Shown here piece by piece: positions 3 to 19,967 of a stretch of 64,000 nucleotides of DNA. Origin of the DNA: Mycoplasmatota bacterium (GTDB lineage: Bacteria; Bacillota_I; Bacilli_A; Izemoplasmatales; Hujiaoplasmataceae); the NCBI GenBank assembly GCA_016342455.1, contig JAEIOE010000002.1, positions 33,239-97,238 on the forward strand, given 5' to 3'. Both the position numbers and the translations under genes were made by a program. How positions within the stretch are numbered: position 1 is the stretch's first letter; each line of letters begins with the position of its first letter. Under the pieces are notes generated by a model that worked only from the letters and a program-made list of their open reading frames with translations, made no database searches and was not told where the DNA came from.

Positions 3-347
3 GTTATTAAGTTTTTAGTGGCTGAGAATACTGAAAAACCTTTAGAGTATTTTGAAGTTTCTAACTACTCAAAAACATCTCCAAGAATTTCAATACAAAA
101 TCTTATTGAAAGTCAACTTGGAACTCAATCAACAGTACCAATAGACTGGGTTGAAACAGTTTATAGTGTAAGCAACAATGCGATTTTAGAACCTATATAT
201 TCATGGGATATATCAATCACTGTTTCTTCAATGCTTGAAAATGCGGCGTTAGGAAATAATATTGATGCAGAACTCATAGCTGCAAATCAATCAATAATCG
301 ATATTATAGAGGAACAAAACTTAGCAAATAATAATCCTAGAGGGTGA
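3..347 (+). CDS. C-terminal part of a protein open at the window's left edge, probably carbohydrate ABC transporter substrate-binding protein
   Basis: Frame is open from base 3 (no stop upstream of the reported GTG at 18), so the gene begins outside the window; immediately followed by two sugar ABC permeases. Confidence 0.55.
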   Translation, partial: VIKFLVAENTEKPLEYFEVSNYSKTSPRISIQNLIESQLGTQSTVPIDWVETVYSVSNNAILEPIYSWDISITVSSMLENAALGNNIDAELIAANQSIIDIIEEQNLANNNPRG

Positions 348-351
348 TGTA

Positions 352-1236
352 ATGAGAAAGAATGTTGATAACAAATCAGCATACCTTATGTTAATACCAA
401 CAATTGTATTACTGATTACTTTCGTATACATTCCTTTATCTATGGCTTTATTCAGAAGTTTCTTTGAATCAACGCCAGAAGGAACTCAATTTCTAGGATT
501 TCAAACTTTTATACAAACCATAACAAATGAATACTTTATGAAGAGTATTTGGACAGTTTTAAAACTATCAATAACTATTACTTTAACCCAATTAGTTATC
601 TCATTTTTATTCGCTAACGCATTGGTTAAAGTCAATAAAAAGTTAAGTGTGATTTCAAGAACGTTGATATACTTGCCTAACTTAATATCTGGAATAGTAG
701 TTGCGGTTATATTTACCTTATTAACAACTTTCAATGGGGGAATTATTAACTCCTTACTTGAAAGCATAGGCGGAAGTCCTATCGCTTTCAATAATGACTA
801 TTTCTGGTCACCATTAAGTATAATTATTCCAACAATCTGGATTGGATTTGGATATTTTTCTTTAGTAATGTATGCGGGAATTATTAATATCCCTAAAACA
901 TACTTTGAAGCAGCTGAAGTTGATGGAGCGAGTTTCCTTCAAAAGATGTTTTATATCACAATTCCTATGATGAAGAATTACTTCATCTTACTAGTAGTAA
1001 CGATGATTGTTGTAAATCTTCAGATGTTTGAAATACCGATGATCATGACAAATGGCCAGCCAGCTAACACTACACTGACACCAGTTCTGTATTTAATTCA
1101 TAGTAGATCCAATGGAAACATTAGTGACACTGAAATTACTACAGCTGCAATCTTAATTATGATTATTATCATTATCATCAACAGTAGTATTTTCTACCTC
1201 TTCAAGAATAAAAAGGGAAGGAAGTGGGAAATGTGA
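352..1236 (+). CDS. Carbohydrate ABC transporter permease, MalF/UgpA type
   Basis: 6-TM protein with EAAEVDGASFLQKMFYITIPMM (EAA loop) motif; overlaps next permease. Confidence 0.93.
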   Translation: MRKNVDNKSAYLMLIPTIVLLITFVYIPLSMALFRSFFESTPEGTQFLGFQTFIQTITNEYFMKSIWTVLKLSITITLTQLVISFLFANALVKVNKKLSVISRTLIYLPNLISGIVVAVIFTLLTTFNGGIINSLLESIGGSPIAFNNDYFWSPLSIIIPTIWIGFGYFSLVMYAGIINIPKTYFEAAEVDGASFLQKMFYITIPMMKNYFILLVVTMIVVNLQMFEIPMIMTNGQPANTTLTPVLYLIHSRSNGNISDTEITTAAILIMIIIIIINSSIFYLFKNKKGRKWEM

Positions 1237-2078
1237 AAAAGCGAAATAAGAAACTAATACTAGATTTACTTGTAGTTCTAGTTGTGTTTATGATCTTCTT
1301 GCCTATCCTTTTGATGATACCATCAATGTTCAAAGATAAATATGAGATTTTCTCATATCCATGGCATTTGTTCCCATCAAATTTTACAGTAGATAATTTT
1401 TCAAGACTGTTGTATTTAGAATACACATCACTTGCGATTAATTTCTTCCGTTCAATGTTCGTTACGATATTCGTAGCTTCAGTAGCTGTTGTATTAGCAC
1501 TGTCGATAAACATGATTGCTGGATTTGCATTCGCCAGACTAAGGTTTTTTGGAAAGAATGCGCTTTGGGTAATGGTCTTATTTACCATGTTTATTCCGGG
1601 GATTACCATATTGATAACTTCTGTCAAAGTAGTAACTGCATTAGGAATGCTTGATTCTATCTGGGTATTAATTATCCCGGGATTAGTTTCTGCCTATAAT
1701 ATTTTCTTTTTTAGACAGTTTTATCTAGGGTTTCCAAAGGAAATTGATGAGGCAGCTAAGATAGATGGAGCGACTAATTTCCAGCTGTTCAGACATATCT
1801 TCTTACCAATGTCAAAAACACCAATGGTAATTATTGGAGCGAGCATCTTTATGGGTTATTACAACTCATACTTATGGCCAACATTAACCATATCTCAAGA
1901 GAGAAAAGACTTGTTCCAAATTATGTATATTATCAGAATGTTATTTAATGATTCATCAACTATTGGTTATGGTAGTGTTCTAGCAGCTACATTTGTTAGT
2001 TTAGTACCACCATTATTGATTTTCATCATCGTACAAAAATATATAAGAGAGGGTATCGCTTTAGCCGGTATTAAATAG
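1224..2078 (+). CDS. Carbohydrate ABC transporter permease, MalG/UgpE type
   Basis: EAAKIDGATNFQLFRHIFLPMSKTP motif; MalG-like ending; overlaps upstream permease (GTG start in overlap). Confidence 0.93.
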   Translation: MGNVKKRNKKLILDLLVVLVVFMIFLPILLMIPSMFKDKYEIFSYPWHLFPSNFTVDNFSRLLYLEYTSLAINFFRSMFVTIFVASVAVVLALSINMIAGFAFARLRFFGKNALWVMVLFTMFIPGITILITSVKVVTALGMLDSIWVLIIPGLVSAYNIFFFRQFYLGFPKEIDEAAKIDGATNFQLFRHIFLPMSKTPMVIIGASIFMGYYNSYLWPTLTISQERKDLFQIMYIIRMLFNDSSTIGYGSVLAATFVSLVPPLLIFIIVQKYIREGIALAGIK

Positions 2079-2086
2079 GTAAATAA

Positions 2087-3160
2087 ATGGAAAACTATAT
2101 ATCAAATTTAAGTAATATTTTTATGGAAAAGAAATCCATTAGAAAGAGGCTGTCTAGTTATGATGTAACTGGGGGGAATGATGATCGTATCTATATCAAA
2201 CCTGGCGAATCAAGAGTAATAGCTGACATAGACGCAGCTGGAATCATCAATCATATATGGATGACACATATGAATGATGAGTTTAAAGAAGAAAAAGAAA
2301 GCCTAAGAAAAGTTATTATTGAAATATACTGGGACAATCATGATCATCCAAGTGTTCAAGTTCCTCTAGGTGATTTCTTTGGAATGGGACACGCGATGAC
2401 GAAGAACTTCGTTTCTGCACCATTACAAATGAGTCCAGAAGACGGTAGAGGACTTAATTCATGGTGGCCGATGCCATTCAAGAAAAATGCTAAGATAAAG
2501 ATAATCAATGACTGTGAGACAATGTTAATTTTGTATTATTACATTGATTATGAGATATATAAAGAAATACCTAATAATTTCCTCTATTTTCACGCTTTAT
2601 GGCATCGTGATTGTCCAACAGATGGAAAGAACCGCGAAGATTTTAAAACGCATCATGAGTGGTGTTTTGAAGGTCAAAACACAACAGGAGATGGCAATTA
2701 TATTGTCTTAGAAACTGAGGGTAAAGGGCATTACTGTGGTTGTCATATAGATATTCACAACTTCAGTGATAGTACTGAATGGGACTGGCCAGGAGAAGGT
2801 GACGATATGATCTTTATTGATGGAGAGTCATGGCCACCAAATATTCATGGGACCGGTACTGAGGATTATGTAAATATGGCATGGTGTCCTAGACAAGAAC
2901 ATCACGCTCCATATCATGGCTTGTTAATGGGTGGAGATGAAAATTGGAAAGGTAAAATAACATATTACCGCTATCATATCCAAGATCCAATTCCATTTAA
3001 AAAATCAATAAAAGTTACAATTGAACATGGACATAATAATCATCGTTCAGATGATATATCAACAACAGCTTATTGGTACCAAACACTAACCGAAAAGCCG
3101 TTTAAACCGATTTTAAAGGTAGAGAAAAGACTGCCTCTTAAAAAAATAATAAACAAATAA
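2087..3160 (+). CDS. GH172-family protein (DUF2961), no signal peptide
   Basis: YDVTGGNDDRIYIKPGESRVIADIDAAGIINHIWMT...PLGDFFGMGHA...GTGTEDYVNMAWCPRQEHHAPYHG characteristic of DUF2961. Confidence 0.88.
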   Translation: MENYISNLSNIFMEKKSIRKRLSSYDVTGGNDDRIYIKPGESRVIADIDAAGIINHIWMTHMNDEFKEEKESLRKVIIEIYWDNHDHPSVQVPLGDFFGMGHAMTKNFVSAPLQMSPEDGRGLNSWWPMPFKKNAKIKIINDCETMLILYYYIDYEIYKEIPNNFLYFHALWHRDCPTDGKNREDFKTHHEWCFEGQNTTGDGNYIVLETEGKGHYCGCHIDIHNFSDSTEWDWPGEGDDMIFIDGESWPPNIHGTGTEDYVNMAWCPRQEHHAPYHGLLMGGDENWKGKITYYRYHIQDPIPFKKSIKVTIEHGHNNHRSDDISTTAYWYQTLTEKPFKPILKVEKRLPLKKIINK

Positions 3161-3175
3161 GAGAAGGAGAAAGAA

Positions 3176-5179
3176 ATGAAAAAATTAGCAAAACTTTTTA
3201 TATTATTATCATTAGTAATGGTTTGCTCTATTAGTTTTGTCATTTTTGCTGAAACACGTGAAGGTGATGAATTAATTACCAATGGTGATTTTGATTTTCA
3301 AGCAGGAGAACTAGCTTTTCCTGACCCCGTATTTGGAGCTGAATATGGAAATGCAGCTGGATGGGGAACACTAGCGTGGGACTCAGCTGCACTAGCAATA
3401 GAAGATCCTGATGATGCAACAAATACTGTATTAAAATTGAGCTTGTATGATGATGCTAAAGCTTGGTCTAGTTTCTTTAGATTTATGACAATCAATGGGT
3501 CAACTACATATGATATTTCAATTGACTTTAAGATTGTAGGATCTACAGACAATATTGGTTTTAGATTTGCAGGTGCTCCTGCACTTGAAATAGTTTTCTT
3601 AGATCATGCATCAAAAACAGCTATCGCTGATAAAACTGATTGGTACAATGTTGAATTCCAATTTGATACAGCTGCTGGTTCATATGATTCAATAGCTTTA
3701 TGGTTTAATACATTAGGCTCAGTAGATAATTATGCACTTTTAGATAATATCTCGGTAAAAGAAGCAGGAACTGATATTGAATTAAATGTTGGTGGAGATT
3801 TTGAAGGATTTTTAGATTATGCACCTGGTTTAGATTTAACTGAAACAGTTAATAGTTATGGATTCTTTGGAACTAATGCACAAGTAGGCGGCGGTTTTGG
3901 TACAATAAATACTGGTGGATACATTGCCAAAGAAGTTGTACTAGCAACAGCTGATTATAGAACAGCTTTCGACTTTACAATTGCTGATGTAACTAATGGA
4001 ACAGCTTCAATTGAGTATTACAATGCAAGCGATGCAGTAGTAGCTTCAGAAGTAATTATGACAGCTGGTGTTATTGATTCAAGTAATGTAACTCTTGTAG
4101 GTTCTGATTATAGCTATAATTCAGATACACCATTAACAGAGACTTGTTCTTATGTAAAAATTAATTACACAGGAGATTCAAGTTTAGTAATTGATAACTT
4201 AAGTATTAAAGAATTACAAGAAATACCTGATAATCCATTTGACCCTAGTACTACTTACTATGAAGTAAGTCAATTATTAGTAAATGGAGACTTTGAAGCA
4301 TTTGACGCAGGACAAGTTTTCTCAGAAGAACAACTTGAAGGTGCTTGGGGTTCTATCTCATTAGATGGCCCAGCAATGATATCTTCAGTAAATGATTCTA
4401 AAGTGATGGACTTAGGCAAAACAGCTGGTAAAATGTATACTAGTGCGTTTGTTATTACACCACCTGAATTAATGGTTAATGATTTATTAAGATTAAGATA
4501 TGATTATAAATTAGATTTAGAATCTGATTTATCAACAATCGTTGTCGCTAACTCTGGTTTTGTTGGAGCTTCAAATGAGGACTATTATACAGTAGACCTT
4601 AAAACTATCCTTGATGGTAATGATACTGTAGGTAATGAATTACTTAACATGCCTGTATCAGTTACTGATAATGGAGATGGTTGGTTTACGGTAGAAATGG
4701 ATTTCCAAGTATCAACTGAATTCTTAATCAAATGTAATAGTATAAGATTCTTATTTACACCAACAAGTGATAATGATCACTTATACATAGATAATGTGGA
4801 ATTAATCGTTTTAGACGATGAAGAACCAACTAATTTAGCTACTGCTTTAGAAATAACAGAAGCTGACCAAGAGATAACAGAAGGCGAAGAAGTAACATTA
4901 AACGCAACTGTTACACCAGCTGACGCTGATAACAATAGCTTAACATGGGCTAGTTCAGATGAAGCAATCGCTACAATCGACGCATCTGGTAAAGTAACAG
5001 CTGTAGCAAAAGGTGCAGTAACAATTACTTGTAGCTTAGATGACGATTCTTTAACTGATACAATTATTGTAACTGTTCTAGAAGCACCAAGTGGTTTTGG
5101 AATAGGTGCTATCATAGCGTCTTGTGTAGTTGGATTTGCCGCTATAGTAGGAGTAGTAATATTCATTAAAAGGAGATAA
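3176..5179 (+). CDS. Exported surface protein with repeated carbohydrate-binding-module-like domains, a Big2 Ig-like domain and a C-terminal TM anchor
   Basis: Signal peptide MKKLAKLFILLSLVMVCSISFVIFA; repeated NGDFDF/GGDFEGF/NGDFEAF domain starts; Big2 motif (TWASSDEAIATIDASGKVTAVAKGAVTIT); terminal TM followed by KRR. Confidence 0.8.
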   Translation: MKKLAKLFILLSLVMVCSISFVIFAETREGDELITNGDFDFQAGELAFPDPVFGAEYGNAAGWGTLAWDSAALAIEDPDDATNTVLKLSLYDDAKAWSSFFRFMTINGSTTYDISIDFKIVGSTDNIGFRFAGAPALEIVFLDHASKTAIADKTDWYNVEFQFDTAAGSYDSIALWFNTLGSVDNYALLDNISVKEAGTDIELNVGGDFEGFLDYAPGLDLTETVNSYGFFGTNAQVGGGFGTINTGGYIAKEVVLATADYRTAFDFTIADVTNGTASIEYYNASDAVVASEVIMTAGVIDSSNVTLVGSDYSYNSDTPLTETCSYVKINYTGDSSLVIDNLSIKELQEIPDNPFDPSTTYYEVSQLLVNGDFEAFDAGQVFSEEQLEGAWGSISLDGPAMISSVNDSKVMDLGKTAGKMYTSAFVITPPELMVNDLLRLRYDYKLDLESDLSTIVVANSGFVGASNEDYYTVDLKTILDGNDTVGNELLNMPVSVTDNGDGWFTVEMDFQVSTEFLIKCNSIRFLFTPTSDNDHLYIDNVELIVLDDEEPTNLATALEITEADQEITEGEEVTLNATVTPADADNNSLTWASSDEAIATIDASGKVTAVAKGAVTITCSLDDDSLTDTIIVTVLEAPSGFGIGAIIASCVVGFAAIVGVVIFIKRR

Positions 5180-5186
5180 CTTTAAC

Positions 5187-6506
5187 ATGAAGAAGTTTTT
5201 AGTATCGTTATTATTAATTGTTATGTCATTTACAATACTTTCATGTGATGCAAGTAAATATGTTATACCAGATATCATTGGTATGGATATTAATGAAGCT
5301 AAGCTTTTAATCGCAGGGGAAGTTAAGACAGAAATTACATATGAATCTACAAACCAACATTTACCAGATTTGGTACTTGGTTTTCAAGATGGATTAGAGG
5401 TAAATGACAAGATGAATAAAAACAAAACACTTAATATAATAGTTGCACAAGCACCTGAAGGATCGTTTACACATTCAAATGAGATAGAGTATGTATATGA
5501 TTTAGGTTTCGTTACTGGTCCAGATTCTCAGAATTTTGATTTATTAAGAGAAACAGGAATCGGAAGTACAGACCTAGGGATACCGGTAACAATTGATGAT
5601 AAGATTGTATTCTTATATGGAGATACATTCAGCGGTACAGAAAACATGTCAGGCATATGGAATTCAAACGTTATGGTTGAATTCACAGATACAGATTTCA
5701 GTGATGGAATCACATTTTCTAGAGTAATAACAAATGATAGAGGTTTTGCGCTAGCTTTTGCGCAGGGCCTCCATCATAAATCAGAAACTGATGAGGAATC
5801 TCAAAGCCCATCTAGAGAAGTAACTAAAATACCTACTGGAGGTATTCAAGTAGGTGAAGATGTGTATTTCTTCTATATGTCAGTTAGATATTGGGGAAGT
5901 CATGGAGATTGGGGAGTAAGTTACAATCAAGTTGTTAAGTCAGACACGAGTTTGTCAAGTTTTTCTGAAGTCGATGGACTTAGATGGACCGAAGAACTTG
6001 CAGCTAACTTTGGTCAGATATTTCCTTTCGAAAATCCTGACCAACCAGACTATGTTTACTTTGTAAGTATACCTGGCGGACGATTTGGCGGAGTAGCTTT
6101 ATTTAGAGTCTTGAAAACAAATTTTGAGAACTTTCAGAGCTATGAATATTACTTAGGTAATGACAACTGGGTATCAGGTTCAAATGGTTTACAACAGTTT
6201 AAAGAGAATCCACATTTGATTATTAGTGCACCATGTGGAGAGTTAAGTATAATGTATAATAACTACTTAGATAAATGGATGATTGTCTACCTTAGAAATG
6301 GTGAGATAATCATGCAAACAGCTGAGAACTTAATCGCTGATTGGAGTCAACCGATAACTTTAGTTACCGGTAGCGACTTTAATGGATTGTATGGGGGCTT
6401 TATAAGTCCTGATATGATCACTGATGATGGTAAGAAGTTCTATATGCAAGTATCTAGATGGTTACCAATATACCAAACACAACTAGTAGAAGTTGTTTTA
6501 AAATAA
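5187..6506 (+). CDS. Lipoprotein with N-terminal PASTA-like region and DUF4185 (GH183-like, predicted endo-D-arabinofuranase) domain
   Basis: Lipobox-like LLIVMSFTILSC; PASTA-like VIPDIIGMDINEAKLLI; DUF4185 blocks STDLGIPVTIDDKIVFLYGDTFSG, FGQIFPFENPDQPDYVYFVSIPGGRFGGVALFRV, GELSIMYNNYLDKWMIVYL, SDFNGLYGGFISPDM. Confidence 0.85.
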   Translation: MKKFLVSLLLIVMSFTILSCDASKYVIPDIIGMDINEAKLLIAGEVKTEITYESTNQHLPDLVLGFQDGLEVNDKMNKNKTLNIIVAQAPEGSFTHSNEIEYVYDLGFVTGPDSQNFDLLRETGIGSTDLGIPVTIDDKIVFLYGDTFSGTENMSGIWNSNVMVEFTDTDFSDGITFSRVITNDRGFALAFAQGLHHKSETDEESQSPSREVTKIPTGGIQVGEDVYFFYMSVRYWGSHGDWGVSYNQVVKSDTSLSSFSEVDGLRWTEELAANFGQIFPFENPDQPDYVYFVSIPGGRFGGVALFRVLKTNFENFQSYEYYLGNDNWVSGSNGLQQFKENPHLIISAPCGELSIMYNNYLDKWMIVYLRNGEIIMQTAENLIADWSQPITLVTGSDFNGLYGGFISPDMITDDGKKFYMQVSRWLPIYQTQLVEVVLK

Positions 6507-6525
6507 GAGCGCTTCTTGCGCTCTT
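6505..6525 (+). promoter_or_regulatory. Perfect 8-bp stem hairpin between DUF4185 gene and fucI (AAGAGCGC-TTCTT-GCGCTCTT), possible weak terminator/processing site
   Basis: Direct inspection; not followed by a strong U tract. Confidence 0.5.
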
Positions 6526-6553
6526 AATTATTTAGAAGGGAGTATTTACTTAT

Positions 6554-8332
6554 ATGAATAGATTAGTAGGAGAATTACCTAAAGTAGGGATTCGACCAGT
6601 TATAGATGGAAGAATGAATGGTATTAGAGAGAGTTTAGAAGAACAAACAATGAATATGGCTTTAAAAGCTAAAGAAATTATTGAGACAATGAGACATGCT
6701 TCGGGTGAGCAAATTGAGTGTGTCATAGCTAAAACTACAATAGGTGGAGTGAGGGAATCGGCGGAATGCGATGCTTACTTCAAAAAGGAAAATGTAGAAG
6801 TGAGTCTTACCGTTACACCATGTTGGTGTTACGGAACAGAAACAATGGATACTGATTTATTAGTGCCCAAGGCAATTTGGGGTTTTAATGGAACGGAAAG
6901 ACCAGGTGCTGTTTATCTAGCAGCTGCTTCAGCTGCGCATGATCAACTCGGATACCCAGTCTTTACCATATATGGCAAAGATGTTCAGGACTCAGATGAT
7001 GAATCTGTACCTATTGATGTAATTAGTAAAATTAAATTATTTGTTAAGGCAGGAATTGCCTTAGCAACTATGAAGGGTAAGTCCTATCTAGCTATGGGAG
7101 GAACTTCAATGGGTATTGCAGGTTCTATAGTCGATAATAATTTCTTTTCTGACTACTTAGGTATGAGAAACGAGTTTGTCGACATGTCTGAGATGGAAAG
7201 AAGAATTGAACTTCAGATTTATGATCCAGAAGAATATAAAACCGCAATAGCTTGGGTAAAAGAAAACCTAAAAGAAGGTAAAGATTATAACTCAAAGATT
7301 TCAACAAGAGAAAAACTAGATAGAGATTGGGAATATGTTGTTAAGATGGTCTTAATCTTTAGAGACTTAATGATAGGAAATCCAAAACTTAAAGAATTAG
7401 GCTTTGGAGAAGAAGCGATGGGGCATAACGCTATCGCTGCTGGATTCCAAGGGCAAAGACAATGGACGGATTTTAGACCTAATGGAGATTTCCTAGAGAC
7501 AATCCTAAATTCATCATTTGATTGGAATGGTATTAGAGAAGCTTATATTGTCGCAACTGAAAACGATTCTTTAAATGGAGTGTCTATGTTATTTGGTCAC
7601 CTGTTAACAGGAACTGCACAAATCTTCTCTGATGTTAGAACTTATTGGTCAAAAGAAGCAGTGAAAAGAGTAACTGGACATACATTAACCGGAAAAGCAA
7701 AGAATGGCGTGATTCATTTAATCAATTCTGGGTCAACTACCTTAGACGGTACTGGACAACAAACTGATAATGAAGGAAACCCTTTGTTAAAGCATTACAA
7801 AGATATAACTAAGAATGACGTGAAAAAATGTATTGAAGCTACAGAGTTCTGTACAGCAAACCTTGATTATATGCGTGGTGGTGGATATTCATCTAAATTC
7901 CTTACTAAGGGAGCTATGCCAGTAACAATGTCGAGAATCAACATTGTGAAAGGCTTAGGTCCTGTTTTACAGATAGCTGAAGGCTATACTGTTGATTTAC
8001 CTGAAGAAGTATATAATACAATTGATTTAAGAACAGATCCAGCTTGGCCAACAACTTGGTTTGTGCCTACGCTTACTGGTGAAGGGGCATTCACAAGCGT
8101 TTATCAAGTGATGAATAACTGGGGAGCTAATCATGGAGCTATTAGTTATGGTCATATTGGAGATCAATTAATTACTTTAGCATCTATGACAAGAATACCA
8201 GTCGCGATGCATAACGTTGATAAAGAAAGAATCTTTCGCCCAAAAACTTGGGCTGCTTATGGAACAAGCGATTTAGAATCAGCCGATTTTAGAGCTTGTA
8301 AGACATATGGCCCATTATATAAAAAGGTGTAA
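6554..8332 (+). CDS. fucI: L-fucose/D-arabinose isomerase
   Basis: [74 protein letters not shown] are FucI signatures. Confidence 0.95.
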
Positions 8333-8334
8333 AT

Positions 8335-9969
8335 ATGAAATTAACAATCGGATTAGATTTCGGAACACTAAGTGTTAGAGCTGTTTTAGTAGACATTTCA
8401 AGTGGTGAAATAATTGCTTCAAGTGTATCTAAATATAGAAATGCTGTAATGGATAGTTATTTGGTTAATGGAATTAAATTACCTAATGACTATGCTTTAC
8501 AAAATGCCTTAGATTATATAGAGTCAATGGAAACAGTAATTAATAAAATAACTAGTAATAATACTATAAACAATAAAGACATTATAGGTATAGGTGTTGA
8601 TTTTACTGCATCAACTATCTTGCCTATGAAAGCTGATGGAACTCCATTATCTGCTCTATCGAAATATGAGAATAATCCCCATGCATACTCAAAACTTTGG
8701 AAACATCACAGCGCTGAAAAACAAGCTGTGAGAATATCTGAATTAGCTATTAAGAGTGAAGCGCCTTGGATTAAACGATATGGCAATAAGATATCAAGCG
8801 AATGGATGTTACCAAAGGTGCTAGAAATACTAGAAGAAGACCTAAAATTATTCAATGAAACAGATTATTTTGTTGAAGCAGGAGACTTTATTACTTACTA
8901 CTTAACGAAGTCTTTCAAAAGAAGTTCTTGCCAAGCCGGATATAAGGGTATATGGCATTCTAAGAGTGGATATCCAAAGGATGAGTATTTAGTTAAACTA
9001 AACAAAAAACTTAAGGATATCTACAATACTAAGCTCTCAGGCGATATATTACCAATAGGTAAGAAAAGCGGGAGATTAACTAGTGAACTAGCTAACAAGT
9101 ATGGATTGAAGCAAATTCCTGTTTCGGTAAGTGTTATTGATGCTCATGTAGCTGCACCTGCATGTCAAGCTGTAAACAGCGGAGACATGCTAATGATTAT
9201 TGGAACTTCATCATGTGATATTGTATTAAGCGAAAAAGAAGTAAATATACCTGGCATTCAAGGTGTTGTAAAAGATGGGGCTATTCCTAATCTATTTGCA
9301 TATGAATCAGGACAACCTGCAGTGGGGGATATCTTCTCTTGGTATATAGAAAATCATTTACCTAGTGGATACTATGCATATGCAAAAGGAAATAATCAAA
9401 ACATTTATCAGTACATGGAAGATAGAATCAAACTAATACCGAAGACTAAGCCTAGACTACTAGCATTAGACTGGTGGAATGGGAATAGATCTGTATTGGT
9501 TGATCCAGATTTAAGTGGGATTTTAGTTGGCTATAATCTTCAAACTACACCTGAAGATATTTATAGAGCGCTTATAGAAGCAACAGCTTTCGGTAAAAGA
9601 GTAACTATAGAAGCATATGAATCAAATGGTATAGAAGTAAAAAGGCTAATAGCTTGTGGTGGTTTAGCAACTAAAAATAAGTATTTATTGCAATGTTATG
9701 CAAATATACTTAAAAGACCTGTATTCTTTACAGAAGAAGAGTATGCACCTGCGCTTGGCGCAGCCATCTTTGGAGCTTTGGCTGCTAAAGACAATGGTGG
9801 ATATTCATCAATTGAGGTTGCCAGTAAATATATGTCTAAGTTAGTTGAAGAACCTATTCTACCTAACAAAGACTTCAATTATGATGAACTATTCAAAATG
9901 TATATAGAGCTACATGATTATTTCGGCAAGCATTCAAAATTAATGAAAAAACTTAAATTACTACAGTAA
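8335..9969 (+). CDS. FGGY-family carbohydrate kinase, ribulokinase (AraB)-like
   Basis: IGLDFGTLSVRAVLVDISSGE; LDWWNGNRSVLVDPDLSGILVGYNLQTTPEDIYRALIEATAFG; CGGLATKNKYLLQCYANIL. Confidence 0.9.
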   Translation: MKLTIGLDFGTLSVRAVLVDISSGEIIASSVSKYRNAVMDSYLVNGIKLPNDYALQNALDYIESMETVINKITSNNTINNKDIIGIGVDFTASTILPMKADGTPLSALSKYENNPHAYSKLWKHHSAEKQAVRISELAIKSEAPWIKRYGNKISSEWMLPKVLEILEEDLKLFNETDYFVEAGDFITYYLTKSFKRSSCQAGYKGIWHSKSGYPKDEYLVKLNKKLKDIYNTKLSGDILPIGKKSGRLTSELANKYGLKQIPVSVSVIDAHVAAPACQAVNSGDMLMIIGTSSCDIVLSEKEVNIPGIQGVVKDGAIPNLFAYESGQPAVGDIFSWYIENHLPSGYYAYAKGNNQNIYQYMEDRIKLIPKTKPRLLALDWWNGNRSVLVDPDLSGILVGYNLQTTPEDIYRALIEATAFGKRVTIEAYESNGIEVKRLIACGGLATKNKYLLQCYANILKRPVFFTEEEYAPALGAAIFGALAAKDNGGYSSIEVASKYMSKLVEEPILPNKDFNYDELFKMYIELHDYFGKHSKLMKKLKLLQ

Positions 9970-9976
9970 AAAATAC

Positions 9977-10006
9977 AGAAGACAGAATCCTCGGATTCTG
10001 TCTTCT
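9977..10006 (+). terminator. Intrinsic terminator-like hairpin after the kinase
   Basis: Perfect 14-bp inverted repeat AGAAGACAGAATCC-tc-GGATTCTGTCTTCT. Confidence 0.8.
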
Positions 10007-10035: not shown

Positions 10036-10445
10036 TTATTCGTTCTCAATCCAACTGGCATAAAGTGTAATATCTTCTGTGCCCATTAAATCAAATGTGT
10101 AAGCAATTAACTCAAGTTCTAAAGGTTCAGTTACAGCAGTATTGAATGCTTGAGTAATAGCTGTGAATCATGAACCATCATTACTATTAAATGTGATAGT
10201 GAATTGATCAGCTTTATATACATAATATGTTATTACAGTATGAGTTACTTCATCATTTGTTTAAGTTCAATTGCCTTTGTAGATATCAATTAAAGACATA
10301 ACTAGAGCGATAGATACCACACCAAAGACAACAATATCTTCGTTTTACAATACATCTTCAGAGGTGTAATATCCTAAAACTAGTTTAGTCTTTTTGTAAT
10401 TCTCGCCTTGTTTTTAGACAGATATGTCGCAAAGCTGACTTTATA
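10036..10445 (-). pseudogene. Decayed C-terminal fragment of an InlB-type (Listeria-Bacteroides repeat) surface protein
   Basis: Minus-strand translation reads ...DIYKGN*T*TNDEVTHTVITYYVYKADQFTITFNSNDGS*FTAITQAFNTAVTEP...AYTFDLMGTEDITLYASWIENE* with several in-frame stops; repeat core shortened; frame changes farther upstream. Confidence 0.65.
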
Positions 10446-10618
10446 TTCTCCAAATGTATTATATATGATACTTATATGATGATTTAAAAAAAATGTGTAG
10501 GGAATAGGCCATGGTTTTATATGCAGTTAGCATGTAATTAATTTAGACACATCTGTTCTGTTTTACAGTTGGTGGAAATTATATAATATTTATAGAAACA
10601 AAAATTTAAGGAGGAATT

Positions 10619-10726
10619 ATGAAGAAAGTTTTATTATTTGCAGTAATGATTTCACTGACTTTATTTTTTGTTGGGAGTATTGTTGTTAAAGCAGATACTT
10701 TTTTTGTAGTGCTTAAATTTTACTGA
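10619..10726 (+). pseudogene. 35-aa orphan signal-peptide ORF with good RBS, probably a 5' gene remnant
   Basis: aaggaggaatt-ATG; MKKVLLFAVMISLTLFFVGSIVVKADTFFVVLKFY*; below the ORF-track size limit. Confidence 0.45.
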
Positions 10727-10813
10727 AAACCTTATTTTACATCTCATTTTAGATTATATAGTGATATAATGTAATTTATATGTGATATATGTCAATCTTA
10801 CTTGGAGGATTTT

Positions 10814-13800
10814 ATGAAAAAATATAATATTTTAATCTTGTTGCTATTAAGCTTGTTTTTAGTAGGTTGTAATGATACTTCAACAGAAGATATAAATACT
10901 ACAGTAACCGCAGTAACTACATTAGAAATAGAAGAGGATAAAACCTATTTAGTTGACGTTGTGGATTTGACTAACGATTACTCTTTTAGTGCAACAAAGC
11001 TAAATATCTATGAGTATGGAATAGATCCTGATATCCCTTATGTTGATATAGAGGAGTTTATCGGTATCTTAGATGAAGGCTTAGTTGATCTGTCATTACA
11101 TGCTAGTGGAGATGTTTTATCTGTATCTTATGATATCTATTATTCGGAAACAGAATTCTTTACTGCTATTTTGGAGTTTAATGCAGAGGAGAATACAATA
11201 TATTACAATGATTTTAATTTTAGTTCCGGTATTGGAATTGATAATATTGAATATACTACTAATATTGAAACTGTAGATTTTATAGTTAATGATTTGGGTG
11301 ATACAGAAAAAACAATCGACTTAGATGACTATGATATGGAAATACTTCGCAGCGAAGATGAGTTTCACATATCATTCTATTTAACTAATCTATTATTATC
11401 TGGAGATATAATAAACTTGTATTTTAACGATGATGAAATCTACATTGTTGATGACCCTATGAAGTTGTTGTTAGAGTTAGAGGAGACTTCATTACCAACT
11501 GATGTAAATGAAACAAACCTAATCAAACATACTGCTAATTATTCAGCTTTATTGTTTGATAATTTCTATGGACTCAAAGAAGAATTTAACTATGATGATT
11601 TTGTTGCTGAATTTGCAAGTTTTGACATGTATTCAGCTTCTACAATAGCTGAGTTTGATGAGAATTTTACTGAGTTTATCTTTGATTTAGATGAAATACA
11701 TACTACAGTTGTTGATTACGGTTATAATAGAGATTCAGTAAATCTACCAGAATTACCAACTAATTCTCGATATATTAGGTTCATTACCACGCTACTCAAC
11801 TCTGGTTATTTTAACAAAGGCTATGATATTAGTTTTACAGAAGAGGCAGAATACTATTATTTAGATATAGTTGAATTTAATCTTGAAACAAAAGATAATT
11901 TAGCAAGCTTCCTTCAAGATTTAAATCCAAACAAAAAAATAATTGTTGATTTATCAACTTGTACTGGAGGTAATTTAATCTCTGTTGTTGAATTGCTAGC
12001 CTATGTAACAAACGACCCGCTTGACCTTAACTACATAAATCCAGCTACTGGTGAATCTTTCACAGAGTCACTTCAATCACTTGAGCCTAAAGCTCTAGAG
12101 AACGAGTTTCAGTTCTATACTTCCTACGCTACCTTTAGCGCAGCGAATCTATTAGTATCAATTGTTAAAGATAACGATTTAGCTATAGTTTTTGGCTCAA
12201 ACACAACTGGTGGAGCTTGTGCAGTTAACTATACAGTTCTACCAAACAATATGATTATTTCTTATTCTACAAATTTTTTATTAACGAATAGTTCATTTGA
12301 ATCTATAGAATTTGGAATAGAACCGGATATATCTGTTTCATCATATGATAGTTTCTATGAAGCTTATCTAGAAACAAATAGATACCTTGATACAAATGCT
12401 GATATAAGAGTGGTTAGTACAGGGACAACTGCAAAGAATATTAGTTTGGAACTGATAAAAGACAGAGTTCCATCTATAGTAAATATAAACGGATATGTTA
12501 TTAATATCTATAATAAAGATGAGACAGAAATTTTATATAGCGAAACGATAGTTAGTGGGGACGAATTTACATTCACTCACAGTTTTAATGATTACCAAGA
12601 CTTATTAATTATAAGAGTAAATTGTTTGTATCAAATAAACGGTGTGGATAGAGTAGAAGAGATTGGTTATAGAGTCGTAGATGATATGTCTAATTTCTTC
12701 ACAACCGATACAGTTACCGTTCCAATAGGAGCAATATACAACGCTAATAAATATGATAGATCAATTGATGATGAATATATCAAAATAGAGATAACTGAAG
12801 CAGCCGTCTATAGGATAGGTATCAGTGGGGATTTTGATGGAAGCCACAAAGTATATGATTTAGAAGGAAATGAAGTTGCTAGATCCAATTATTTTTCATT
12901 GGATGTGGGTACTTATATAGTTGAGATAAATCCTATTAGAGAAGAAGGAGATTACACGATTCTTATAGAGTCGGTATATGATGATGCTCCTTTTGGTCAA
13001 AATATTACATTGATTGAAGGGAATTCTAACACATCTACAGTAACTTATGACTATGACAGGGATGTTGAATGGATTAATCTCACGCTTCTAGAAGAAGCTG
13101 AAGTAACAATTTCAATGGATAATTTGACAAGAAACTATTTTATAGCTGATAAATATGGAGAAGATTATAATAGTCATACTGATTTTATCAGTCCCTATAA
13201 AACTAGAACATTTATTCTCCCTAAAGGGGAATATATGTTAGGGTTCCATTCTGCTAACTTTGTTCCACTAGGGTCAATTACGGTTACTTTTGATGTTGAT
13301 TATATGATAAATGATTTTTCAGGAGATATCTTTTTAAATGACACGAATTTTGGACAATTATTGATTGGCGAAAACATTATGACATTTGAAGGCTTTTGTG
13401 ACAGAGATATTTATGAACTTGTCCTTACTGAAATAACGGATTTAATGATTGATGGTGGTGGCGTTGTTTCGTCTTGTCTGATTGGCGAAGATGGGGACTG
13501 TGATTTTGCAAATCAGTTTTATAACTTGCAACCAGGAACGTACTACCTTATGTTTACTACCAATGGTGTTATTGAAGAGTCTGTAACTCAAGCTGCTGAA
13601 ATAATTTTATTACATGACGAATCAACTGAAAGCAATATGTTGCCAATTGAGTTGGATGAGGAATTTACTGTAATAATCGAGGTTGATGAAGATGTTGATT
13701 ATTATACCTTCACAATTGATGAATTAACCACGATTGAGATGATTCAGGAAAATGCTAGTACATCTTTTACTAGATTATATTTGGATGATGGTTTATGGAC

Positions 13801-14272
13801 TCAAGTCTGGGAGACAAGTTATGATGAAAAAACATTCCAACTAGCTCCAGGTGATTATATTCTAGCAATTGGCGAATTTGTAAGTGAGCTAAATGAAGTA
13901 GAAATATATACGGTAATACTAAATACTTATACTACAGTTGATTTAGACCCAAACTTAACGGGCTTAGCAGATGAAGTATATCGTACAGTTGATTTTACAA
14001 CTGAGGATCATATCCATTTGGTTGGGGAAATCGATTATATAGGAGATTGGGATATATATAGGATAGTTATTAATGAAGCTGGAACGTATTCAGTGTCTAG
14101 TTACACAGATAGTGATATGCAATTCTATATAATCCTTGAAACAGGTGAATGGGAAAGAGTAATGTATAATACAATGGAATTATCAGTTGGTGTACACTAT
14201 CTGTTAGTAAGACAAATGTATGACCAAGATACAATCAGTTATGAATTGTTTTTTGGTAAAAGAAATAATTAA
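10814..14272 (+). CDS. Large lipoprotein with S41 (C-terminal processing protease-like) peptidase domain and C-terminal PPC-like repeats
   Basis: Start at MKKYN after ggagg; lipobox LLLSLFLVGC; S41-like KKIIVDLSTCTGGNLISVVELLAYV...SNTTGGACAV...FGIEPDI; repeated beta-rich VDYYTFTID-type segments. Confidence 0.75.
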   Translation: MKKYNILILLLLSLFLVGCNDTSTEDINTTVTAVTTLEIEEDKTYLVDVVDLTNDYSFSATKLNIYEYGIDPDIPYVDIEEFIGILDEGLVDLSLHASGDVLSVSYDIYYSETEFFTAILEFNAEENTIYYNDFNFSSGIGIDNIEYTTNIETVDFIVNDLGDTEKTIDLDDYDMEILRSEDEFHISFYLTNLLLSGDIINLYFNDDEIYIVDDPMKLLLELEETSLPTDVNETNLIKHTANYSALLFDNFYGLKEEFNYDDFVAEFASFDMYSASTIAEFDENFTEFIFDLDEIHTTVVDYGYNRDSVNLPELPTNSRYIRFITTLLNSGYFNKGYDISFTEEAEYYYLDIVEFNLETKDNLASFLQDLNPNKKIIVDLSTCTGGNLISVVELLAYVTNDPLDLNYINPATGESFTESLQSLEPKALENEFQFYTSYATFSAANLLVSIVKDNDLAIVFGSNTTGGACAVNYTVLPNNMIISYSTNFLLTNSSFESIEFGIEPDISVSSYDSFYEAYLETNRYLDTNADIRVVSTGTTAKNISLELIKDRVPSIVNINGYVINIYNKDETEILYSETIVSGDEFTFTHSFNDYQDLLIIRVNCLYQINGVDRVEEIGYRVVDDMSNFFTTDTVTVPIGAIYNANKYDRSIDDEYIKIEITEAAVYRIGISGDFDGSHKVYDLEGNEVARSNYFSLDVGTYIVEINPIREEGDYTILIESVYDDAPFGQNITLIEGNSNTSTVTYDYDRDVEWINLTLLEEAEVTISMDNLTRNYFIADKYGEDYNSHTDFISPYKTRTFILPKGEYMLGFHSANFVPLGSITVTFDVDYMINDFSGDIFLNDTNFGQLLIGENIMTFEGFCDRDIYELVLTEITDLMIDGGGVVSSCLIGEDGDCDFANQFYNLQPGTYYLMFTTNGVIEESVTQAAEIILLHDESTESNMLPIELDEEFTVIIEVDEDVDYYTFTIDELTTIEMIQENASTSFTRLYLDDGLWTQVWETSYDEKTFQLAPGDYILAIGEFVSELNEVEIYTVILNTYTTVDLDPNLTGLADEVYRTVDFTTEDHIHLVGEIDYIGDWDIYRIVINEAGTYSVSSYTDSDMQFYIILETGEWERVMYNTMELSVGVHYLLVRQMYDQDTISYELFFGKRNN

Positions 14273-16036: not shown

Positions 16037-16122
16037 GCATAGAATTAAAACTATGCGGTAATTGCGTATAATGATTATAAATACGCAATTACCTTGAAAT
16101 GTTTTACTGAATGTGATATTAT
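16037..16122 (+). promoter_or_regulatory. Promoter/operator region of the abiE operon: two adjacent inverted repeats plus sigma-A-like promoter
   Basis: IR-A GCATAG(16037-16042)/CTATGC(16051-16056); IR-B GGTAATTGCGTAT(16057-16069)/ATACGCAATTACC(16081-16093); -35 TTGAAA 16094-16099, 17-nt spacer, -10 TATTAT 16117-16122. Confidence 0.7.
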
Positions 16123-16138
16123 ACTTTTGGGTGATAAT

Positions 16139-16927
16139 ATGATGAATAAAGTATGTGAAGATTTAAAGGTTAAATATAATAATAAGAAAAGTATTAGTAG
16201 AGATGAATTGTATCAGTTCTTAGGAAAATACTATGAAAATATTTCTACGAGCTCTTTTTTGTGGATGGTTTATGATTTAAAAGAAATGGGACTAATAACT
16301 ATTGGCTCAAGTGAAATGTATATTCTTAATTTTAGTAAGCCTAAAATATATTTTAAAGTCAAACAAGCTGATATCACATTAGTTCAATTATTGAAGAAGT
16401 ATAATAGTAAAATTATTGATAATAAGTATTTTAATTTAGACCCATTTATTTCTGTTTGGGATACTCGTATAGTAAATAAATATATTAAACACACAATATC
16501 TAAAAATAGTATAATTGTAGAAGTAGATAAATACAGAATAGATGATGTGTTCAATTATATAAAAAAGAATTTTTCTAAAAAATATTATGTAACAAAGACA
16601 CGTCAATTGGATTCTGATCATATTATTTATGAATCAAATATTATCTATATTAAACAATTAGTAAAAAGAGCACCTATAAATAAAAAAATTACAGAAAAAG
16701 AATACTTTGTTACCGTTCCTAAAATAGAGAAAATTTTAGTTGATGTTGTTGTTGACAATGAAATATTTAATTTCTATGACGAAAGTACTTTGAAAGAGTT
16801 ATACAGAAATATCAATGACAAATATAATGTTAATTTAGTTACATTATTGTATTATGCAAAAAACAGAGGTGTAAAACAGCAGATGTTACAATTTCTAAGA
16901 GAGTCGTTAGGGGTGAATTTAAAGTGA
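16139..16927 (+). CDS. AbiEi-like antitoxin/transcriptional regulator (DUF6577-type)
   Basis: N-terminal winged-helix-like region, ...FVTVPKIEKILVDVVVDNEIFNFYDESTLKELYRN..., overlaps an AbiEii gene by 4 nt; start taken at MMNKVCED rather than 16094. Confidence 0.75.
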   Translation: MMNKVCEDLKVKYNNKKSISRDELYQFLGKYYENISTSSFLWMVYDLKEMGLITIGSSEMYILNFSKPKIYFKVKQADITLVQLLKKYNSKIIDNKYFNLDPFISVWDTRIVNKYIKHTISKNSIIVEVDKYRIDDVFNYIKKNFSKKYYVTKTRQLDSDHIIYESNIIYIKQLVKRAPINKKITEKEYFVTVPKIEKILVDVVVDNEIFNFYDESTLKELYRNINDKYNVNLVTLLYYAKNRGVKQQMLQFLRESLGVNLK

Positions 16928-18000
16928 TTAATGACATAAGTTTTAGTGCTGAATGGCTTAAGAAAATTAATGATAAATATAAAAGAGCTGACAAGAATAT
17001 TATAGAGAAAGAAATATATGCTTTGAAATTATTGGAGTTGATTGCAAAAACTGGATTTAAATTCATATTTAGAGGCGGAACTGCACTCTCACTTATGTTA
17101 CAAGAATTTACCCGTTTTTCTATTGATATTGATATTTGTACAGGTGAATCACATAAGAGACTAGAAGAAATCATAGAGATATTAAGAGCGAGTAAGTTTT
17201 TTAGTAAAATTACAAAATCTAAAGAAAAAAGTAAAGCAACTGCTGGAATTGATAAATTACATTATCAGTTTCACTATTTGTCTAAATTAACGGAAGAAGA
17301 TAATTTTGTTGTTTTAGATGTTGTGTTTGATAAAAACAGTTTTGAACATACTAAAAAAATTCCAATTAAGTATATGCTAATTAAAACAGAATCCCCTTAT
17401 ATAGAAGTAGTTGTGCCTACCTTGGAAGAGTTACTAATAGATAAGCTAACTGCTTTTGCTCCTGAGACAATTGGTATTACCTATAAATCAAAAAAATACA
17501 TAGAAATCATTAAACAAATGTACGATATAACGAAAGTAAGCGATAAAATCAAAGTGAATGAATTAAAGGTTTCAACGTATAAATTAAAAGCACAAAAGCA
17601 AGCAAAGTGGAGAAATTTAAATATTGATTATATAGAAACCTTAAAAGATTCAATCAAAACCGCTCTTAATATAATTTCAGATGGATATTTCTCAACTGAA
17701 AACAATGAAAAACTTAAAAATGCGATAGCTAGTTTTAGCGGATATATTCATACTACGGTTTATACGCTATCAGATGCATATGAATCCGCTATAAAAGTGC
17801 TGTATATTTCAACAATTCTTTTATTTGGTGGATTTGAAGTATTCAATAAGAAAATAACTAAGATATCTTTAAAAGATGTTGATATGTTAAGTAAGAATTT
17901 TTTAAATATAATAAATGTTCTAGCACAAGATAACATGACTTATTTACTAGAATCAGCAATTTCAGTTATTCAAAATGAACAGTTACTTATAAAACAGTAA
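16924..18000 (+). CDS. AbiEii/AbiGii-family nucleotidyltransferase toxin
   Basis: FIFRGGTALSLMLQEFTRFSIDIDICT (GG-T/S...DxD nucleotidyltransferase motif), EELLIDKLTAFAPETIG. Confidence 0.88.
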   Translation: MINDISFSAEWLKKINDKYKRADKNIIEKEIYALKLLELIAKTGFKFIFRGGTALSLMLQEFTRFSIDIDICTGESHKRLEEIIEILRASKFFSKITKSKEKSKATAGIDKLHYQFHYLSKLTEEDNFVVLDVVFDKNSFEHTKKIPIKYMLIKTESPYIEVVVPTLEELLIDKLTAFAPETIGITYKSKKYIEIIKQMYDITKVSDKIKVNELKVSTYKLKAQKQAKWRNLNIDYIETLKDSIKTALNIISDGYFSTENNEKLKNAIASFSGYIHTTVYTLSDAYESAIKVLYISTILLFGGFEVFNKKITKISLKDVDMLSKNFLNIINVLAQDNMTYLLESAISVIQNEQLLIKQ

Positions 18001-18058: not shown

Positions 18059-18859
18059 ATGAAAAAGAATTTAGGATATATAGTTATTGGTGCGATTTTC
18101 TTTGGCATATCAATGATTCCCAAATTGGATACTATAAATGGACTAAATATGGTTACTTGGACTGTTTTTGGACTTTGTGTAGCCAAAGTAACTATAGCTT
18201 ATGGGTTGTTTATTACAAACGAAAGAAAAAAATACGTTTATGAGCACTTTAATGAAGAATTTAGAGTCTCATTTGCTTACATTTTTAGAATAATTTTATC
18301 AAATAAGGAGTTTCTTTTAATTAAAGGAAGAAATAAGAAATATCAACCTGTAGGAGGAGTGTTCCAGTACAGTGAAAATACAATTGCATATTGGAAAAAG
18401 TTAGGTTTTACTAACGACGGCACTGGAGAATTGTATGACTTTAGAGGAACAGTAAAGGGAAAGAATGTTTTAAAGTTTCTTAAGAAAATAAAATCAGGAA
18501 AAAATAGAGAAAATACATGTTATAGGGAATTTGATGAAGAAATTGTCAAAAATATTAAAACGAATAAACAGCTATTTGATAAGGAAACTTTAAAATTTGA
18601 ATATTTAAAAACATCGTATTTATATGGAAGAGAACAATTTTACACCCAACCTAATAGAATGAATATATATATGGTATATAATGTTGACTTGTCTGAAAAT
18701 CAAGATATTGAATTATTGAATTTAGTTAAGACTTCATCTAAATTTGAAACATTTAAGAAGATTCAAATTAGCTGTCTAGGGATGGACATTGCAGTAAACA
18801 ATCATGAGCCTACAATTAATGAACATACAAAATATATATTATATGAGGAGGATATTTGA
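18059..18859 (+). CDS. CBASS effector: two TM helices plus SMODS-associated NUDIX domain (Cap16-like)
   Basis: Two N-terminal hydrophobic segments, then KYQPVGGVFQYS...NRENTCYREFDEEIV (SA-NUDIX-like); directly upstream of CD-NTase. Confidence 0.82.
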   Translation: MKKNLGYIVIGAIFFGISMIPKLDTINGLNMVTWTVFGLCVAKVTIAYGLFITNERKKYVYEHFNEEFRVSFAYIFRIILSNKEFLLIKGRNKKYQPVGGVFQYSENTIAYWKKLGFTNDGTGELYDFRGTVKGKNVLKFLKKIKSGKNRENTCYREFDEEIVKNIKTNKQLFDKETLKFEYLKTSYLYGREQFYTQPNRMNIYMVYNVDLSENQDIELLNLVKTSSKFETFKKIQISCLGMDIAVNNHEPTINEHTKYILYEEDI

Positions 18860-18860
18860 T

Positions 18861-19967
18861 ATGATATACAGAGAATTTTTAAGCAAGTATGGACAATTAG
18901 AGATTGATGAGTATTTGCACTTAATAGGTGATAAACTACAGATATCTAAGAATCAAAGAGAAAGCATACAAAAAAATTATGAGGCTTTAGTAGATTATAT
19001 AGAAAACAATAACAGTCTTACTAAAACATATGATAAAATTATTGCTTATGCTCAAGGATCTTATGCAATAGATACTGTAAATAAGCCACTTAGAAATGAT
19101 GAATTTGATATAGATATTATTGTGGAGTTTCCACTAAAAGTTGCTGTTCAAGGTCCTAAAGTATTTTATGATGAGTTATTAAATGTGTTTAGCGGTGAAA
19201 GTAGATACGCTGATATCGTCGAACCGAAAAATCGATGTGTAAGAATAAACTATAAGAGTTCTAATTATTATTTTGATATCTTACCGGTAGTACCTACTAA
19301 CCAGGAAGGCATTAAACATGCCCCTGATAAAAAATTAGAAAAATGGGTTAGAACAAGTCCGAAACGTTATAGAGATTGGTTTAACAAAAAAGCTGCAGCA
19401 TTACTTCTTGAGTATAGAGAACTAGAACCCCTTCAAACAGATGAATTGCCATTTCAAATGAAACCACCTTTAAAAAGAGCAGTTCAACTAGTAAAAAGAA
19501 GTCGTGATATTTTCTTTAAAGATGAAGAAAAATACTATACAAGCAGTATTATCATTACTACATTATTTGGAAAACATTATAATAGTGAGAAATCTCCTTT
19601 TTTATGTATAAAGAATGTTGTTAGTATTTTGAAACAAAAATATACAACCACATTTGAGTTAAAAAATCCAGTTGATAATAATGAGAGTTTTACGGAAAAA
19701 TGGGTAACAGATATTAAATATTATTCAAATTTTAAGTCGTTCATCGATTTTCTTTATAAAAAGATAAATGAAATTGAAAACTCTCAAGGGATTAACAATA
19801 AACTTTTATATCTATCTGAATTATTTGGAGATAGTACTGTAGATTCAGTGGTAAGTACATATTCAGAATGGAATAATCGAAAAAACTACTCAGTTGATAA
19901 TAAGGGAAAGTTAAGTACATCAAATAATATCAATACAGCAAAGAAAAACACATTCTATGGCGAATAA
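18861..19967 (+). CDS. CBASS CD-NTase (SMODS nucleotide cyclase)
   Basis: AYAQGSYAIDTVNKPLRNDEFDIDIIVEF (GS...DxD motif), YFDILPVVPTN; RBS gaggagg then ATG at 18861 (ORF track start at 18804 overlaps upstream gene). Confidence 0.9.
   Translation: MIYREFLSKYGQLEIDEYLHLIGDKLQISKNQRESIQKNYEALVDYIENNNSLTKTYDKIIAYAQGSYAIDTVNKPLRNDEFDIDIIVEFPLKVAVQGPKVFYDELLNVFSGESRYADIVEPKNRCVRINYKSSNYYFDILPVVPTNQEGIKHAPDKKLEKWVRTSPKRYRDWFNKKAAALLLEYRELEPLQTDELPFQMKPPLKRAVQLVKRSRDIFFKDEEKYYTSSIIITTLFGKHYNSEKSPFLCIKNVVSILKQKYTTTFELKNPVDNNESFTEKWVTDIKYYSNFKSFIDFLYKKINEIENSQGINNKLLYLSELFGDSTVDSVVSTYSEWNNRKNYSVDNKGKLSTSNNINTAKKNTFYGE

Follow-up and report, generated by a model that had tools for sequence, protein, structure and literature searches.

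A nine-gene operon at the edge of the window

Here we analyse a 64,000-nucleotide stretch of DNA from a Mycoplasmatota bacterium (the window; G000:C35:33239-97238) and, in particular, the operon at its start, which very probably encodes an AraC-regulated system that cuts, imports and burns D-arabinan, as judged from the sequences of its genes. The source is a 2.43-Mb metagenome-assembled genome (MAG) of 97.8% completeness, and each absence given below for the whole genome carries a risk of about 2% of being false. Positions 3 to 9969 hold eight open reading frames, all colinear on the plus strand and located as the original prediction had them, and profile scores agree with the identities it had assigned to the ATP-binding cassette (ABC) importer, the glycoside hydrolase of family GH172, the DUF4185 lipoprotein, the FucI isomerase and the AraB-type kinase (Table 1). 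An AraC-type regulator and most of the gene for the substrate-binding protein (SBP) lie just outside the window and bring the operon to nine genes; the complete SBP gene spans L002:17210-18586, i.e., positions -1029 to 347 of the window. The seven complete genes within the window are spaced by -13, 8, 15, 7, 47 and 2 bp, and the gene order recurs in other genomes, which implies that the colinearity is not due to chance. A palindrome that follows the kinase gene, with its T-run on the minus-strand side, looks like the end of the operon.

Table 1. Features of the operon, in window coordinates (negative positions lie upstream of the window)
Feature	Position	Strand	Evidence or remark
AraC-type regulator	-2067..-1207		precedes SBP gene
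SBP lipoprotein of ABC importer, C-terminal 114 aa	3..347	+	SBP_bac_8 82.5 bits; orthologues in related loci
ABC permease 1, MalF/UgpA type	352..1236	+	PF00528 58 bits; UgpA-like 102 bits
ABC permease 2, MalG/UgpE type	1224..2078	+	PF00528 46 bits; UgpE-like 125 bits
GH172 (DUF2961), cytoplasmic, predicted exo-alpha-D-arabinofuranosidase	2087..3160	+	Pfam 280 bits
Surface protein, secreted, C-terminally membrane-anchored: beta-sandwiches like carbohydrate-binding modules (CBMs), Big_2 and transmembrane helix	3176..5179	+	Big_2 55 bits
GH183 (DUF4185) lipoprotein, predicted endo-D-arabinanase	5187..6506	+	Pfam 217 bits
FucI-family isomerase, predicted D-arabinose to D-ribulose	6554..8332	+	PRK10991 1032 bits
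AraB-type FGGY kinase, predicted D-ribulose to D-ribulose-5-phosphate	8335..9969	+	PRK04123 643 bits
Terminator-like perfect 13-bp inverted repeat	9977..10006		8 bp past kinase stop; 1 found vs 0.1 expected

Catalytic residues of the two hydrolases

The GH172 protein is the single DUF2961 copy in the genome. When it is aligned to BACUNI_00161 (4kq7), alphaFFase1 (7v1v) and DgGH172c (8ah3), its E237 (acid/base) falls on E270 of alphaFFase1 and E233 of DgGH172c and its E259 (nucleophile) on E291 and E254, respectively, residues that mutation has proved necessary (PMC8605356, PMC10115798), and both the domain and the two catalytic glutamates of the family are thus in place. In alphaFFase1 of Bifidobacterium dentium, the founding GH172 enzyme, E85 and K147 are required for activity on difructose but not on p-nitrophenyl alpha-D-arabinofuranoside, and a cysteine in BACUNI_00161 apparently clashes with fructofuranose (PMC8605356). 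The window enzyme shares the catalytic pair with alphaFFase1 but has no counterparts of these two +1-subsite residues in the alignment; directly after the tryptophan matching W298 it carries Cys267, kept in all eight window-type GH172 proteins examined, at a position that, from the numbering offset, would be that of Cys304 in BACUNI_00161. The presence of Cys267 together with the absence of E85 and K147 counterparts favours an alpha-D-arabinofuranosidase over a difructose enzyme.

The GH183 lipoprotein has its lipobox cysteine at C20 and a PASTA-like N-terminal region, and matches EndoMA1 (8hhv) with E=1.4e-23. Its D129, D146, E352 and R299, invariant in a six-member alignment, correspond to D33, D51, E243 and R198 of EndoMA1, of which D33, D51 and E243 are essential in that enzyme (PMC10509167). 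The DUF4185 domain and all three essential positions that characterize the family are accordingly found here, and the protein is a predicted endo-D-arabinanase. The original prediction was to be refuted if catalytic residues were missing; they are present in both hydrolases. Beyond this one full-form DUF4185 copy, the genome contains two distant relatives on another contig. These form a tandem pair (G000:C17, L030:8596-12487, minus strand) with an inserted F5/8-type C domain and an ABC transporter of its own; the first keeps a 'GDTF' motif, and similar proteins, often paired, recur elsewhere in the family, in several genomes, perhaps as a separate GH183-like subfamily.

The anchored surface protein had been described as CBM-rich. 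Big_2 is its sole Pfam match, with no Pfam CBM among the results. A model built from an eight-member alignment (pLDDT 82) shows beta-sandwiches in series, together with Big_2 and a helix at the C-terminus, and the domain with the highest conservation, when predicted by itself (pTM 0.83), was matched by Foldseek to CBM22, CBM16 and CBM4 and to both EndoMA1 entries, with template-modelling (TM) scores of 0.50-0.53 by query length. A CBM-like fold is thus predicted where Pfam has no CBM, and it is reasonable to infer, but no more than that, that the protein captures glycan. With the whole model as query, Foldseek also returned large beta proteins of many domains at TM 0.1-0.2; we set these aside as the likeness common to beta-sandwiches.

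D-Ribulose-5-phosphate as the probable product

FucI clears its profile cut-off of 775 bits by a wide margin, its best match in the PDB is a D-arabinose isomerase (3a9r, 929 bits), and fucose isomerases act on D-arabinose (PMC6894278). The kinase scores 643 bits as a ribulokinase (cut-off 428) versus 33 bits as a fuculokinase (cut-off 471), its best PDB match is a ribulokinase (3qdk, 548 bits), and an AraB phosphorylates D-ribulose (PMC12307932). We predict that the kinase acts on D-ribulose, an assignment at the family level, as sequence does not fix the specificity of the kinase in either module described below. A genome-wide search for class-II aldolases (PF00596, which covers FucA, RhaD and AraD) returned none, whereas the same search was positive in 12 of 14 control genomes; the genome also has no fuculokinase, its other two FGGY kinases being glycerol kinases (GlpK). 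What had been noticed within the window, a FucI without a fuculose pathway, thus extends to the whole genome. It follows that FucI cannot feed the known fuculose-1-phosphate route and that the kinase, for want of AraD, cannot feed an L-ribulose-5-phosphate route; D-ribulose-5-phosphate remains as the product, because it requires no class-II aldolase.

Two endings behind a common core

We compared nine loci including the window, a small and related set with full or partial cores; a scan of genome contigs returned seven loci. Carriers of the same operon include Candidatus Izemoplasmatales, Acholeplasma-like and Haloplasma MAGs. The common core comprises AraC, SBP, permeases, GH172, anchored protein and GH183, and is continued in four of the nine loci by FucI and the AraB-type kinase (the window, G081 (L037), L043 and Haloplasma (L044), where two other genes separate isomerase and kinase). 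In four others (G065 (L038), G016 (L027), L042 and G273 (L059)), the core is followed by a single-domain KpsF/GutQ-type isomerase and a ribokinase-like kinase, and the GH172/GH183 operon of G433 encodes a 534-aa fusion of kinase and isomerase, with a PfkB domain at residues 3-302 and a SIS domain at 376-498. This partition holds across whole genomes: FucI is found in exactly G000, G081, G450 and the L043 genome, and KpsF-type isomerases (at least 119 bits) in exactly the other five of the nine, such that the two isomerases are mutually exclusive. A concatenated tree, several deep nodes of which are weak, requires three changes between the endings and places G065 (KpsF-type) and L043 (FucI) as sisters with 89% support.

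The KpsF-type isomerases score 119-215 bits against TIGR00393, with 5uqi as the nearest PDB entry (190 bits). At the positions of Lys59, His88, Glu111 and His193 of E. coli KdsD, which we take to be functional residues, the lysine and both histidines are kept in all five proteins and the glutamate in three. Loss of the asparagine in the ribokinase 'GSxNxD' motif of the linked kinases was considered as a mark of specificity and dropped, because human ribokinase is not known to have it either. Both modules can be reconciled with a single conversion only, that of D-arabinose to D-ribulose-5-phosphate, and the sugar is thereby identified without recourse to the hydrolase families. We thus consider it likely, from gene content and residues, that the D-arabinan operons of this lineage have two interchangeable endings, the second being a catabolic route through D-arabinose-5-phosphate (A5P) by way of the ribokinase-like kinase and the KpsF/GutQ-type isomerase.

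Neither module is confined to full operons. A second pair of KpsF-type isomerase and ribokinase-like kinase in the L042 genome (L072:8068-9581) has a glycosyltransferase and a GH63/trehalase-like protein as neighbours but no GH183, and the pair is thus not exclusive to D-arabinan operons. In a second FucI locus of Haloplasma (L073), a single block that lacks GH183, an ExoMA1-type GH172 (442 bits to 8ic8) is joined by FucI, the same kinase and a window-type GH172. The GH183 operon of L042 also has an ExoMA1-type GH172; ExoMA1 itself is a characterised exo-alpha-D-arabinofuranosidase (PMC10509167).

Genomic neighbourhood

Ahead of the AraC-type regulator, L002 contains genes resembling an IS3 element. 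Also upstream of the operon (L002:212-3369 and 10086-12201) are genes with a by-eye resemblance to a corrinoid protein and UroD-like methyltransferases, which flank a maltose-type ABC transporter and an alpha-amylase-like enzyme. Downstream of the operon, the window encodes a 1156-aa lipoprotein with an S41 peptidase domain (10802-14272), a DUF6577 protein followed by an AbiEii nucleotidyltransferase, reminiscent of a type IV toxin-antitoxin pair (16094-18000), and a SMODS nucleotidyltransferase adjoining a SMODS-associated NUDIX protein (18059-19967), which resemble a CBASS defence pair.

Discussion

How might the operon lead from a polysaccharide to a pentose phosphate? We envision that the GH183 lipoprotein, in view of its conserved catalytic residues, cuts D-arabinofuranan at the cell surface, that the anchored CBM-like protein and the SBP capture the fragments, and that the ABC importer takes up oligosaccharides with energy that probably comes from an MsmX-type ATPase encoded outside the locus. 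In the cytoplasm, GH172 would free D-arabinose from alpha-linked ends, in keeping with its active-site residues, and FucI would convert it to D-ribulose. The AraB-type kinase would then supply D-ribulose-5-phosphate to the pentose phosphate pathway, a step that gains support from the lack, anywhere in the genome, of a phosphate route for L-fucose or L-arabinose. In sister operons with the other ending, the order of reactions would be reversed: the ribokinase-like kinase would phosphorylate D-arabinose to A5P, and the KpsF/GutQ-type isomerase would turn this into D-ribulose-5-phosphate. For the window, this is the path of the original prediction, from endo-cleavage through capture, uptake and exo-cleavage to D-ribulose-5-phosphate, and it is well supported at the sequence level; to call it complete was an overstatement, given that the genome lacks GH116 and the locus lacks a transporter ATPase.

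Several observations weigh against D-arabinan utilization or leave gaps in it. The GH183 protein has no more than a distant relationship to EndoMA1 (87 bits), and the GH172 protein falls into the group of alphaFFase1 and DgGH172c, not that of ExoMA1; alphaFFase1 is also active on alpha-D-fructofuranosides (PMC8605356). No GH116 exo-beta-D-arabinofuranosidase (PF04685) is present anywhere in the genome, so that mycobacterial arabinan may keep its beta-capped termini. No ABC ATPase is encoded in the locus, the rest of the genome not having been searched for MsmX; in the sister operon L059 (G273) an ABC ATPase adjoins. In L043, a DUF6259 protein of 729 aa, which may be a glycoside hydrolase, is encoded between GH183 and the kinase (L043:11356-13545), and it is possible that it stands in for the missing exo-beta enzyme.

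The absence of GH116 would sit well with a D-arabinofuranose glycan other than that of mycobacterial-type walls as the actual substrate, a sub-case that overlaps with the proposed D-arabinan operon; since the characterised GH183 enzymes act on mycobacterial-type D-arabinan (PMC10115798, PMC10509167), we regard this sub-case as rather unlikely, if worth keeping in mind. Far less probable is a locus for alpha-D-fructofuranosides or difructose anhydride, with a GH172 enzyme acting like alphaFFase1, to which it aligns with 260 bits and whose reported substrates include difructose anhydride: the residues needed for difructose are missing, Cys267 would match the cysteine said to clash with fructofuranose, and fructose needs neither GH183 nor FucI nor a ribulokinase. 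We give slightly less credence still to an L-fucose locus, whereby FucI would produce L-fuculose, the FGGY kinase L-fuculose-1-phosphate, and an aldolase encoded elsewhere would complete the route. FucI is named for L-fucose, and in the sister locus of G081 a FucU/RbsD-type mutarotase gene directly follows the kinase gene (L037:1109-1534); yet the G081 and L043 genomes, which share the FucI/kinase module with the window genome, likewise lack a PF00596 aldolase, the kinase scores as a ribulokinase and not as a fuculokinase, and fuculose would leave the replacement by a KpsF-type isomerase and a ribokinase-like kinase unexplained. An L-arabinan or L-arabinose locus is the least credible of all, for although the kinase is a member of the AraB family, AraD (of the class-II aldolase fold) is absent genome-wide, the isomerase is FucI rather than AraA, and published work ties both GH172 and GH183 to D-arabinofuranose.

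The proposed D-arabinan operon follows a known pattern of secreted GH183, ABC importer, cytoplasmic GH172, isomerase and kinase. A cluster of this design was described in 2023 in Microbacterium arabinogalactanolyticum, where the cluster (EndoMA1/2, ExoMA1, ExoMA2) also includes GH116 (PMC10509167), and Dysgonomonas gadei has a D-arabinan polysaccharide utilization locus (PUL) with abundant fucose isomerase (PMC10115798). The design is thus already known from other phyla, and the novelty implied by the original prediction was overstated; neither paper names the present lineage. Unlike the actinobacterial cluster, the operon of this mollicute-related bacterium comes without GH116, has one GH183 gene in place of four DUF4185 genes, a GH172 enzyme of the DgGH172c/alphaFFase1 group and a conserved anchored CBM-like surface protein, and its GH183 has a PASTA-like N-terminus and no C-terminal CBM. 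PUL42 of D. gadei (DgGH172a-c, DgGH4185a/b) is a Bacteroidota PUL, whereas the window combines an ABC importer of the Gram-positive kind with a cytoplasmic GH172. In the E. coli D-arabinose route, which joins the L-fucose locus with the D-ribulokinase DarK (PMC12307932), D-arabinose is metabolized through a D-ribulokinase beside fucose-pathway genes, as is predicted in part for the window; here, however, the kinase is AraB-type, other fucose genes are lacking and the module is coupled to polysaccharide cleavage. The second ending resembles the Rbl locus of Citrobacter rodentium (D-ribulose transporter, RblK, RblI), in that a KpsF-like isomerase is part of a pentose catabolic operon; RblI is dispensable for growth on D-ribulose (PMC12307932), whereas the sister-operon isomerase replaces FucI and is paired with a ribokinase-like kinase. 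Apart from RblI, the literature searched describes no catabolic ending of A5P isomerase and ribokinase for D-arabinan, but most subscription papers were outside that search and the novelty of this ending is unproven. A close GH183 occurs in four of 90 genomes of the order, and a strong DUF4185-family match in five of 392 genomes sampled from the phylum.

Mycobacterial-type cell walls characteristically contain D-arabinan, and organisms that degrade it provide enzymes with which these walls can be studied. With this operon, the use of D-arabinan would reach a mollicute-related lineage, whose GH183, GH172 and binding proteins make up a compact set of orthologues for testing. A5P isomerases have so far been studied chiefly for lipopolysaccharide (LPS) and capsule synthesis, and the swapped endings predict a catabolic role. 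If this holds true, A5P isomerases would gain a role in bacteria without LPS, and whole metabolic modules would have been swapped repeatedly behind a fixed polysaccharide-degrading core.

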